Below are positions 27,020-39,993 of a stretch of DNA of 54,662 nt, in pieces. The notes below the pieces were generated by a model that was given only the letters and a program-made list of their open reading frames with translations, had not been told where the DNA came from and did not search any database. Both the position numbers and the translations under genes were made by a program. The stretch is from contig JAKOVI010000004.1 in assembly GCA_029782135.1 (NCBI GenBank), forward strand, positions 1 through 54,662, written 5' to 3'. Position 1 is the first letter of the stretch, and every line of letters begins with the position of its first letter. The DNA is from Bacillota bacterium. Its GTDB lineage: Bacteria; Bacillota; UBA4882; UBA10575.

Positions 27020-27134
27020 AATACTCATCTTCCAGCATTCTGGAGGGAATTAGCACCGTTTGGAATCCAATCCAATGGTTGCCGGGTTTCATCGGGCCCT
27101 TTACCCTCCACCTCTCTTGATGAGTGAGTATTAA
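27020..27134 (-). ncRNA. SAM-I (S-box) riboswitch aptamer
   Basis: The minus strand carries the S-box core: AGAGAGGTGGAGGG, then GGCCCGATGAAACCCGGCAA (kink-turn and pseudoknot region), then GGTGCTAATTCC and a closing CCAGAATGCTGG hairpin. The P1 helix forms from AATACTC at the 5' end and GAGTATT at the 3' end (27020–27026). High SAM stabilises P1 and permits the downstream terminator, turning metK off. Confidence 0.96.
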
Positions 27135-35546: not shown

Positions 35547-36650
35547 TTATCCATTCCACCTTGGCAGGTTATCCAGTTCACCGCCAAGCAAACAGTTCGC
35601 AAGCACGCCGGCGGCCGCCGGCGTTTCGAAAAAAGCGGGATCCTCATGGTAAGAACGGCCCATTGTTTTGAGTGGCAGGTCATAAGCATCCATCAGGACC
35701 GGAAGGGCGGGAACCTTTAATTGATAAAGATGGTGCCTGGTCAATCCGCTTTCTTTGATTTGCCGAGTGAGGATTTCCATCCGCTCATCCTCCCAATCCG
35801 GAAGGGCAATCAAGGCGGTGGCAAAGGTAAGTTCCCCTAACACCGTTCGACTGTGATGGCTTAAACCGCGATGCCTGGCCCGGGGATCAGCAAAGCTAAT
35901 CCGGGGGATCGCGACCGGGCGGCCGCCCAGTCTTTGGACCGCTTCCAATATGTACGCCTGCTCAATCCCAGAAAAGCCATACTTGGTACCGGTCCCGACA
36001 ATCCCCGGTCCCATCGCGACGATGATCACCTCGGCCTGGGTTACTGCCTTAGCGGCCGCCAAGGCCGAATAGATATTCACCGCTTCCAAATCGCCGCCAA
36101 AGGCATGTCCACATGTAATCACGGCGGAGAGCAGCCCCTTGGCTTTTAGCCTGCGTACCGTATCACTGAAGCTGAGCGGTAAAGCGGCGCCATCCGTCAT
36201 AATGTAAACGACCCTCCGCCGGGGAGTCTCCCCATGGAAAGCCAATAAGGCCGGCGCAACCATACTGTGCAAAGTTCCGACCAAAACCGGGCTGCCTTCT
36301 AAAGAAGTAAAACTCTTGACGGTGGAATGATGAGGCGAGTTCTCCTCCTCGACGGACAACACGGGAAACTGCCAAGGTGTATAACGGAGCTTCATAATAT
36401 GCCCCGCCAGTTCTTTTTTTTCCGGGTTCTGGTCACACCGGGCGATGACAAAATGATAACCCCCGGTTCCCAGCCCGAGTTGGACGGCGGTCGTATTTAA
36501 CCAGACCCGCTCCCCTGGTTGTACCCGGCCGGTCAAGCGGGGGTAAGCAAAAGCTTTGGCTTCTTCCCCGGCAATCAGCACTACCACTTCTTGATAATCA
36601 TCACCTTCGCGCGTAATCCGCTGCACGCATCCCTCTTCACACTGGAACAT
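35547..36650 (-). CDS. DUF3866 family protein
   Basis: A 367-residue protein of the DUF3866 family, conserved in Gram-positive genomes but of unknown function. Recognisable blocks are LNTTAVQLGLGTGGYHFV, VYIMTDGAALPLSFS, ITCGHAFGGDLEAVN, and GPGIVGTGTKYGFSG. There is no signal peptide or membrane segment. AAAGGGGCGAGCGA lies before the ATG. It lies upstream of the Nudix gene in a standard Clostridia arrangement. Confidence 0.9.
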   Translation of the reverse strand: MFQCEEGCVQRITREGDDYQEVVVLIAGEEAKAFAYPRLTGRVQPGERVWLNTTAVQLGLGTGGYHFVIARCDQNPEKKELAGHIMKLRYTPWQFPVLSVEEENSPHHSTVKSFTSLEGSPVLVGTLHSMVAPALLAFHGETPRRRVVYIMTDGAALPLSFSDTVRRLKAKGLLSAVITCGHAFGGDLEAVNIYSALAAAKAVTQAEVIIVAMGPGIVGTGTKYGFSGIEQAYILEAVQRLGGRPVAIPRISFADPRARHRGLSHHSRTVLGELTFATALIALPDWEDERMEILTRQIKESGLTRHHLYQLKVPALPVLMDAYDLPLKTMGRSYHEDPAFFETPAAAGVLANCLLGGELDNLPRWNG

Positions 36651-36948
36651 TCGCTCGCCCCTTTTTTATTTTTTGCCGCCGTACGGTGAACTCCTGCTTA
36701 ACAAGTTTAGTTTATATCCTTTTTCCTGCTTTAAACCGGCCGTACCCCTTCTCACCAATTCCCCGCTCTTCTCGATCAACAAGCCCTTGTCCGCTCCCGC
36801 GACAGGCTGTACTTTGGTAACCCTCCTTGACTATCAACTCGAAACAATCCATACCAAGGCCCAATTTCCAGCCATATTACGTCCGCCACCCAAACTTATC
36901 GTTTCTCGTTACTGTTCTTCATACCGTCACTGCTCTCTTCGTAAAAAC

Positions 36949-36977
36949 AAAAAAGCCAGGCCGTTTAACGACCTAGC
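36949..36977 (-). terminator. Rho-independent terminator downstream of the palindromic element
   Basis: On the minus strand a nine-base stem (GCTAGGTCG / CGGCCTGGC, using G-U pairs) with a five-base loop is followed by six U residues. It would end a transcript of ppdK plus the palindromic element, or of an independent RNA made from the element. Confidence 0.75.
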
Positions 36978-37004
36978 CTCTCTGCTCGTACAGTATCTGA
37001 TATT

Positions 37005-37228
37005 TTCGGCATTAACCGAGCCGAATGATGTTTCCTTGTTCCCATGAATTTCTTGGAGTATTCTAGATCTCAGCTCCGTTGAAAGCGGGCAACCGCTTTA
37101 TGGTTCCTCCTGAACCAAAAGCGGCGCGCGACTTCCATATCGCGCGACCCGCTTTCAACCTCCGCTTCGTTAAGAATACTTACCAAGAAATTCAAGTCAC
37201 CGGAGAACATCATTCTGCCTCGGCAGAA
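37005..37228. repeat. 224 bp imperfect inverted repeat with a T-shaped core
   Basis: Two arms (37005–37089 and 37148–37228) are imperfect inverted copies. Shared blocks, arm to arm, are GAATGATGTT (37023–37032 / 37206–37215), TGAATTTCTTGG (37045–37056 / 37183–37194), AGTATTCT (37057–37064 / 37173–37180) and GTTGAAAGCGGG (37078–37089 / 37148–37159). Each arm also has its own terminal hairpin: TTCGGC/GCCGAA on the left and TTCTGC/GCAGAA on the right, with paired base changes. Between the arms are two further hairpins (37093–37124 and 37125–37146), so the centre folds as a three-way junction. No open reading frame runs through it. Confidence 0.75.
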
Positions 37229-37278
37229 AACCGAATAGGTTGTTTATCCACCTTGCAAGGATAGAAAGGAGCAGACAA

Positions 37279-39993
37279 CTACTTGCGTCGCGGATTATTA
37301 ATCTCGGCCTGGGCAGCCGCCAACCGCGCGATCGGCACCCGGTAGGGCGAACAAGAAACATAGTCCATCCCGACATTATGGCAGAATACGATTGAACTGG
37401 GATCGCCGCCGTGTTCGCCACAGATTCCGACTTTTAGGTCCGGCCGCGTGGTTCTTCCGCGCTTAATGCCGATCTCGATTAACTGCCCGACTCCTTCCTG
37501 GTCCAGGCTCTGGAAGACGTCTTCCGGCAAAATCTTCTTATCGATATAGTACGGCAAGAAGCGCCCTGCATCATCACGGCTGTAACCAAAGGTCATTTGG
37601 GTAAGATCGTTGGTTCCAAAGGAGAAAAACTCGGCATCCTCGGCAATCTTGTCGGCCAGCAAAGCAGCGCGCGGAATCTCGATCATCGTACCAATATGGT
37701 ACTTAAGTTGCACGCCTTTCTCCGCCATTACCTGCTCCGCAACTTTGACACAATACTCTTTAATCATCTTCATCTCACCGGTGGTCCCGATCAGCGGGAT
37801 CATGACCTCCGGCGTAATGGCCATGCCCTGCTGGGTTAGTTCACAAGCCGCTTCAAAGATTGCCCGAGTTTGGGTTTCAAAGATCTCCGGGTAAACGACG
37901 CCCAGACGGCAGCCACGGAAACCGAGCATCGGGTTGAATTCCGCCAACGCCTTTACTTTCTCTGCGACCTTGGCCGCCGGGATCCCTAGTTCTTTCGCCA
38001 CCTCTTCCTGACCTTTCCGGTCATGCGGCAAGAATTCATGGAGTGGCGGATCCAGCAACCGGATCGTCACCGGGAGACCCTTCATCACCTTGAAGATCTC
38101 ACTAAAGTCTTGCTTTTGGTAGGGCAGGATCTTGGCCAAAGCTTTCTTCCGCGCTCCCACGTCCTCGGCCAGGATCATTTCACGGACGGCCAGAATCCGT
38201 TCGTGTTCGGGCCCGAAGAACATATGCTCGGTCCGGCAAAGTCCGATCCCTTCCGCCCCAAAATCGAGAGCAACTTTGGCATCCCGCGGCGTATCCGCGT
38301 TCGTTCTCACCTTAAGTGTCCGGACCTGGTCCGCCCAGGACATTAAAGTCTCAAAACTGCCGGAAATCTTCGGATCCACCAACGGCGCCTGCCCAAGAAT
38401 AACATCACCCGTAGAACCGTTGAGGGTCAACCAATCGCCCTCTTTGAGAAGATGGCCGTTAATCTCAACCACTTTGCGGGCTTCGTCGATCACGGCATCC
38501 CCGCAACCGGAAACGCAGCACTTACCCATCCCCCGGGCCACGACGGCCGCATGGGAAGTCATTCCGCCGCGGGAGGTTAGAATTCCTTCGGCAACATGCA
38601 TCCCGCCGATATCTTCAGGGGAGGTCTCGGTCCGCACCAAGATCAGTTTGCAACCCGGATCTTTTTCCTTCCATTCCTCGGCCGTCTCAGCGGAAAAGAC
38701 GACCTGGCCGACGGCCGCGCCGGGGCTGGCCGGCAATCCTTTGGCAATCTTTTGCACCTTGGCCTTCGGATCAATCATTTTGTGCAAAAGTTGATCCAAT
38801 TGGAGCGGCTCAACCCGGGTCAACGCCGTCCGTTGATCAATCAGACCTTCCTCAACCATATCAACGGCAATCTTGATCGCCGCCGCCCCGGTCCGTTTCC
38901 CGCTTCTGGTCTGCAGCATGAACAGGTTGCGATCCTGAATGGTGAACTCAATATCTTGCATGTCTTTATAATGGTTTTCCAAGATCTTGCGTAATTCGAG
39001 CAATTGCTGATAACACTCGGGCATATATTCTTCGAGGGAGGGATACTTGGTCTTCCGTTCCTCTTCGGGGATCCCGTTGTCCGCCGCCCATTGGCGCGAA
39101 CCTTCCAAACTGATCTGTTGCGGTGTCCGGATCCCCGCCACCACATCTTCACCCTGGGCGTTGATCAGAAACTCGCCGTAGAATTTGTTCTCCCCGGTCG
39201 ACGGGTTGCGGGTAAAGGCTACCCCGGTCGCCGAAGTGGAACCCATGTTCCCAAAGACCATCGTTTGTACATTGACGGCGGTGCCCCAGTCGTCGGGGAT
39301 CTTATTCAGTTTCCGGTATGTAATCGCCCGCGGATTCATCCACGAAGAGAATACGGCATTGATTGCCCCCCTGAGCTGCTCCCAGGGCTCGGACGGGAAC
39401 TCAGATCCCAATTTCTCCTTCACCAACACTTTGTACTCGGCAACCAGTTCCTTAAGGGCATCCGCGTCTAGTTCATGATCAAGCGTGACCCCTTTTTCCG
39501 CCTTCTTTTTGGCGAGCAGTTCTTCAAAATGGCTATGTTCAAGCCCCAAGACCACATTACTGTACATTTGGATAAACCGCCGGTAGCTATCATAGGCGAA
39601 GCGTTCGTTCCCTGATGATTTTGCCAGACCTTGGACGGTCGAATCGTTTAAACCTAAGTTCAGGATCGTATCCATCATCCCCGGCATCGAGGCGCGGGCG
39701 CCGGAGCGAACGGAGAACAATAAGGGGTTGTCAGGGTCGCCAAACCGTTTCCCCATCACTTCCTCCACTTTTTGGAGGTTAACTTTGATCTCGTCTTCTA
39801 ACCCCGCCGGCCACTGTTTATTATTTTCGTAAAAGGCGGTACAAACCTCGGTTGTAATGGTAAAACCGGGCGGGACCGGGATTCCCAGGTTGGTCATTTC
39901 CGCCAGGTTTGCCCCTTTACCACCGAGCAAGTTTCTCATTTCTGCAGTTCCATCAGCGTGTCCATTTCCGAAAAAGAAAACCATTTTTGCCAT
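37279..39993 (-). CDS. ppdK: Pyruvate, phosphate dikinase
   Basis: A 904-residue enzyme interconverting pyruvate, ATP and phosphate with PEP, AMP and pyrophosphate; in anaerobes it links glycolysis and PEP supply. Domains in order: N-terminal ATP-grasp ([26 protein letters not shown]), phosphohistidine domain ([20 protein letters not shown], with the catalytic His), and C-terminal PEP/pyruvate barrel ([26 protein letters not shown]). The ATG at 39993 follows GGAGGAATATTC and gives the family start [10 protein letters not shown] 16-codon upstream extension is unlikely. Confidence 0.97.

Follow-up and report, generated by a model that had tools for sequence, protein, structure and literature searches.

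A folded intergenic palindrome downstream of ppdK, probably one copy of a MITE-like small interspersed repeat of digester Bacillota

Architecture of the palindrome at ppdK

The stretch of Bacillota DNA analysed here (54,662 nucleotides, "the window") carries ppdK and a DUF3866-type gene side by side, and an imperfect palindrome lies between the two (Table 1). The first-pass annotation had described nested inverted arms that fold into a T-shaped core with a three-way junction, and had placed two perfect stems in its centre; both descriptions are borne out by the inverted repeats and by the fold. The predicted minimum-energy structure of the palindrome strand has -101.4 kcal/mol, against a mean of -52.5 (sd 3.8) for 200 shuffles (z = -13), and runs from a single long arm into a three-way junction with two perfect hairpins (junction hairpins A and B). 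Only short mechanical ORFs cross the palindrome and a transposase gene of its own is absent. The G+C content of the core is 50% in a window ranging from 45 to 53%, so the A+T richness listed for MITEs is lacking. An Rfam covariance-model search of positions 36600-37500 gave no match up to E = 5, and a search of the ppdK element together with five related loci returned nothing credible. The sole Rfam match above threshold in the window is a SAM riboswitch (RF00162, 70.9 bits) at 27022-27126 on the minus strand.

The two end hairpins had been singled out as bearing paired base changes. Both are present in the window copy, and stems of at least 6 bases at both ends are found in this copy only among 28 full-length copies. 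The outer halves of both hairpins fall beyond the core shared by the family. The difference between TTCGGC and TTCTGC is a mismatch between the arms in which each side has its local partner, and it contains no compensated pair; with both stems in a single copy of the 28, these changes also lie outside the covariation signal seen across copies (see below). The end hairpins are a private feature of the window copy, which perhaps arose by chance or by local template switching.

Table 1. Positions of the palindrome, its parts and neighbouring features in the window
Feature	Position	Strand	Basis or remark
Left end hairpin TTCGGC/GCCGAA	37005..37025	+	private to window copy; outer half outside family core
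Right end hairpin TTCTGC/GCAGAA	37213..37228	+	private to window copy
Palindromic core common to the repeat family	37016..37223 (about)		consensus CCGGGGCAGAATGGTGTT ... AACACCATTCTGCCCCGG; alignment of copies from genome and family
Inverted repeat I2	37020-37032/37206-37218		found in sequence
Inverted repeat I3	37045-37056/37183-37194		found in sequence
Left arm	37020..37056	+	pairs with 37183-37218; inverted repeats I2 and I3, fold
Right arm	37183..37218	+	inverted repeats, fold
Inner stem, left side (base of three-way junction)	37078..37089	+	partner 37148-37159; inverted repeat I4
Inner stem, right side	37148..37159	+	inverted repeat I4
Junction hairpin A (CCGCTTT...AAAGCGG)	37093..37124	+	fold; helix 6 of covariation set, 95% of cells paired
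Junction hairpin B (CGCGCGA...TCGCGCG)	37125..37146	+	fold; helix 7 of covariation set
GTAG, presumed start of outer repeat	37279..37282	-	overlaps ppdK stop codon TAG (37279-37281)
Presumed outer closing stem TCTGCTC, 5' side in ppdK sense	37269..37275	-	folds; position and structure, weak sequence similarity
Presumed outer closing stem GAGCAGA, 3' side in ppdK sense	36981..36987	-	folds
ppdK terminator AGGCTAGGTCG-TTAAA-CGGCCTGGCTTTTTT	36944..36979	-	fold; kept in relatives without the repeat, no part of the repeat

Copies, flanks and candidate movers

Further copies, which the first-pass annotation had proposed to seek, were found both in the genome and in its relatives. A search of the 2.38 Mb assembly that contains the window (G000) with positions 36985-37245 gave 50 matching pieces at about 36 places, and matches to the palindrome occur in 12 of 16 genomes of the same family and in 0 of 25 genomes outside it. 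Nine copies in G000 are near full length, including the window copy, and the other eight are at 79-90% identity. With up to 2 mismatches allowed, 61 occurrences of a 14-base piece from the terminal repeat were counted, compared with 7 for the reversed control. Copy length varies from 33 to about 205 bp; most copies are decayed, many are half copies, and shortened palindromes of 33, 48, 58, 63, 114, and 183 bp have kept their ends and lost their centres. The ends are of the GCCGGGGCAGAATGGTGTT type, and CCGGGGCAGAATGGTGTT with its inverse forms the terminal inverted repeats in copies of every length. At one place in the genome (L019/L030, G000:C57:13832-14158) two partial copies about 210 bp apart lie inside a tandem duplication at 91% identity. 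An exact pattern scan of all public genomes, which named digester Bacillota/Hydrogenispora MAGs, was too loose and returned mostly chance matches.

The copies occupy intergenic DNA downstream of genes. None of the 28 is inside a gene, and a few ORF calls overlap one end. Among the 25 copies with genes on both sides, 16 have both neighbours oriented like the canonical strand, 5 (the window copy among them) have both oriented opposite to it, 4 separate convergent genes, and 0 separate divergent genes; 20 of the 25 are on the same strand as the preceding gene.

Occupancy differs between relatives. While ppdK and the DUF3866-type gene are adjacent in all 16 family genomes, the palindrome is found between them in only two, G000 and its sole congener G001, in which the copy is shortened and in opposite orientation. 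The other 14 lack it there, and in most of them the ppdK stop codon is directly followed by the terminator (a simple terminator scan did not list this terminator in the window). A second site, reached via the copy in G007, is occupied in that genome and, by a remnant, in G015 only. At some further loci two or three genomes share a copy in the identical position, and the spread must therefore in part be old. No target-site duplication was seen at the palindrome ends; a clean empty site was not obtained because the intergenic DNA of the relatives is too diverged, and the orthologous empty sites do not define a junction.

Many copies share outer flanks as well, GTAG-TCGCCCACCCCAGC..GCTGGGGCAAGCGAAAGGATGAAAAT before the palindrome and GGCTGGGTAAAGGCTTACAAGGGCTATCATTTATACGAGCGACGAG after it. 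This outer repeat occurs in tandem clusters and starts with GTAG followed by an imperfect hairpin, TCGCCCACCCCAGCAAGCTGGGGCAAGCGA, and thus has the GTAG-type foot of REP/RAYT systems, a feature of the outer repeat only. Several outer repeats start at the stop codon of the preceding gene; at L061, L065, L068, L089, L114, and others the GTAG supplies or overlaps that codon. A short form without the palindrome is plentiful in G005 (48 matches) and is predicted to fold as a cloverleaf-like unit. There was no clean before/after pair of empty and filled outer repeats. A clean insertion would not account for all the differences between the short form and the long one, so we do not claim that the palindrome jumped into the outer repeat.

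The flanks of the window copy resemble the outer repeat weakly (z at most 2.9, best with the palindrome flipped, z 0.8 and 2.9), so that at the window we infer the outer part. From the modelled closing stem and the GTAG, the window element is probably wider than first reported, with its limits, in ppdK sense, at the ppdK stop codon (GTAG, 37282-37279) and near 36980, and the palindrome would make up the long arm within a larger composite repeat of about 300-350 bp. Of the 224 bp originally delimited, the inverted arms are confirmed; as an extent it is larger than the family core and probably smaller than the whole element. The flanks of L005 and L140, as those of the window copy, fit the outer repeat better with the palindrome flipped, a hint of inversion in place. 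Other inverted repeats were also observed: a second long one, TAATCTCATTTTTCGCCT ... AGGCGAAATGTGAGACTA, was seen within the outer repeat close to GACGAG in L122, L131, and L068 of G005 (parts masked as N), and another dispersed one with ends GGAATTGCATAATT / AATTATGCAATTCCC is present in several family genomes (L135 2900-3154, the L091 intergenic region, and L108 around the outer repeat).

The GTAG foot with its imperfect hairpin, the tandem clusters, and the 48 matches in G005 would suit an outer repeat that is a REP, mobilised by a Y1 transposase of the REP-associated type and carrying the palindrome along as a passenger. We consider this unlikely, since the Y1 transposase profile finds no match in 14 of the 16 family genomes, including those with most copies (G000, G001, G002, G005, and G012). 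The two Y1_Tnp matches are a broken gene without related flanks in G006 and a short, weak match in G003. On the same grounds a link to IS605/IS200/RAYT via Y1_Tnp was rejected, and with it the earlier suggestion of an IS605-like end pair. Reverse transcriptase (RVT_1) was absent from five genomes searched, DDE_Tnp_1 from four, and DDE_3 from 16, the copy-richest genomes among them, and no pair of inverted ends 0.6-4 kb apart, as expected around a transposase, was found in G000. Short-read draft genomes often lose insertion sequences and transposase genes, so the absence of a transposase is weak evidence.

Matching of the arms between copies

The first-pass annotation read the paired changes as selection for structure and called for a covariation test. 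Because unconstrained RNAalifold yielded a poor consensus from the alignment of 28 rows, pairs were taken from single folds. In 18 aligned copies 91.7% of the cells of 72 pairs are paired. Twenty-seven pairs changed on both sides in these copies, compared with 9.1 (sd 2.3) in shuffles and 5-9 in slid controls, and 47 cells changed on both sides against 12.8 in shuffles. Across 28 copies, double-sided changes affect 106 cells, where independent variation of the arms would lead to 32; Watson-Crick pairs make up 73 of the 106, and 24 occur in a single copy only. These covariation counts overstate the number of events since the copies are related and hence not independent. The arms covary across copies, and to this extent the earlier reading stands.

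The appeal to selection is its weaker part. An RNA under selection is expected to tolerate G-U and to avoid A-C. One-sided changes to G-T and A-C number 80 and 74 in the 28 copies, and over all cells, with pairs from single folds, the counts are 86 and 77. This near equality argues for strand-neutral decay of a copied DNA palindrome and not for RNA selection. Paired arm changes can arise at the DNA level through template switching (PMC8794818). The matching of the arms may come from such template switching or from selection on active source copies, two causes that are not distinguishable here.

These counts bear on whether the repeat works as RNA. The first-pass annotation had offered a structured RNA made after ppdK, and a conserved cis RNA of ppdK is not supported, given its presence at the site in 2 of 16 genomes and the lack of a G-U excess. 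A broader version would have the repeat act as structured RNA in many different transcripts, for regulation or at the 3' end (as a stabiliser or processing site, for example), and be kept by RNA selection. In its favour are the strong fold, the covariation, and the location of the copies downstream of genes, where the canonical strand usually has the direction of the upstream gene. We regard it as quite unlikely: it is already weakened by the mismatch symmetry, the position is not conserved in relatives, many copies are decayed or halved, there is no Rfam match, and the orientation bias is also explained by outer repeats that start with GTAG at stop codons. A palindromic repeat can therefore mimic a conserved structured RNA, with true covariation but with relatives that lack the element and with strand-neutral mismatches. 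Comparing the numbers of G-T and A-C mismatches is an inexpensive check before such hairpins are called RNAs.

A replication or recombination site (single-strand origin or recombinase target) working at each copy, for which a very stable hairpin able to form on either strand and the better fit of a flipped palindrome at the window, L005, and L140 (compatible with inversion) might speak, is highly improbable given mostly decayed copies of very uneven length, neither number nor place conserved, and the weak flip signal at the window.

Interpretation and comparison with known repeats

The palindrome is probably one copy of a small non-coding, mobile-looking (MITE-like) repeat and constitutes the long arm within a larger composite unit. 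The mobile, MITE-like element among the original proposals fits the many copies, the presence and absence between relatives, and the restriction to one family of genomes. We concluded that these small interspersed repeats, MITE-like or BOX-like in character, make up a new and apparently undescribed family in digester Bacillota. In the proposed course of events copies would spread as folded DNA, moved by an enzyme acting in trans that was not found in these draft genomes, and would be retained in gene tails, where harm is least. While a copy is active its arms may be kept alike through template switching or the need to fold, and after landing it would decay freely and lose its centre and its pairing. 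As part of the ppdK message, the copy would form a stable hairpin between stop codon and terminator. A bolder picture, rather unlikely in our estimate, is a modular folded element of one uncultured bacterial family, in which a cloverleaf-like outer repeat stands with its GTAG foot on stop codons, one of its arms can be replaced by long palindromes of different kinds or lengthen into them, and the moving enzyme belongs to a type with no link so far to repeats like these.

Several known systems can be compared. REP/BIME sequences with RAYT (Y1) transposases combine a GTAG foot and an imperfect hairpin in intergenic clusters. The outer repeat shares all three features; the present repeat is far larger, and the genomes with most copies have no Y1 transposase. 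Template-switch hairpins (PMC8794818) show that compensated arm changes are possible at the DNA level, although that study concerns RNA genes such as rRNA and here template switching is only a proposed cause of arm matching.

The Correia repeat enclosed elements of Neisseria are 204 bp long and intergenic, with terminal inverted repeats, a strong fold when transcribed, and reported inversion (PMC10969869). The palindrome resembles them in size, terminal inverted repeats, intergenic location, and strong fold. Correia elements are mostly upstream of genes and carry promoters (PMC10969869), whereas the present repeats are downstream of genes and the window copy itself lacks a promoter signal.

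MITEs are characterised by terminal inverted repeats, paired secondary structure, dispersed copies, lack of their own transposase, target-site duplication, A+T richness, and ends shared with IS elements (PMC3049150). The palindrome has the terminal inverted repeats, the strong pairing, the dispersal, and no transposase gene of its own. Its core is not A+T-rich, and with neither a target duplication nor an autonomous partner demonstrated we call it MITE-like and not a proven MITE.

BOX, RUP, and SPRITE of Streptococcus pneumoniae are small composite intergenic structured repeats that are presumed to be passively mobilised (PMC3049150), and their nesting has been noted (PMC10969869). BOX is linked to IS ends in the same genome, and no such IS was found here. 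The present repeats, from a different host group and likened by description, share with BOX, RUP, and SPRITE the variable internal modules, the clusters, the insertion into one another, and the occurrence of several families per genome.
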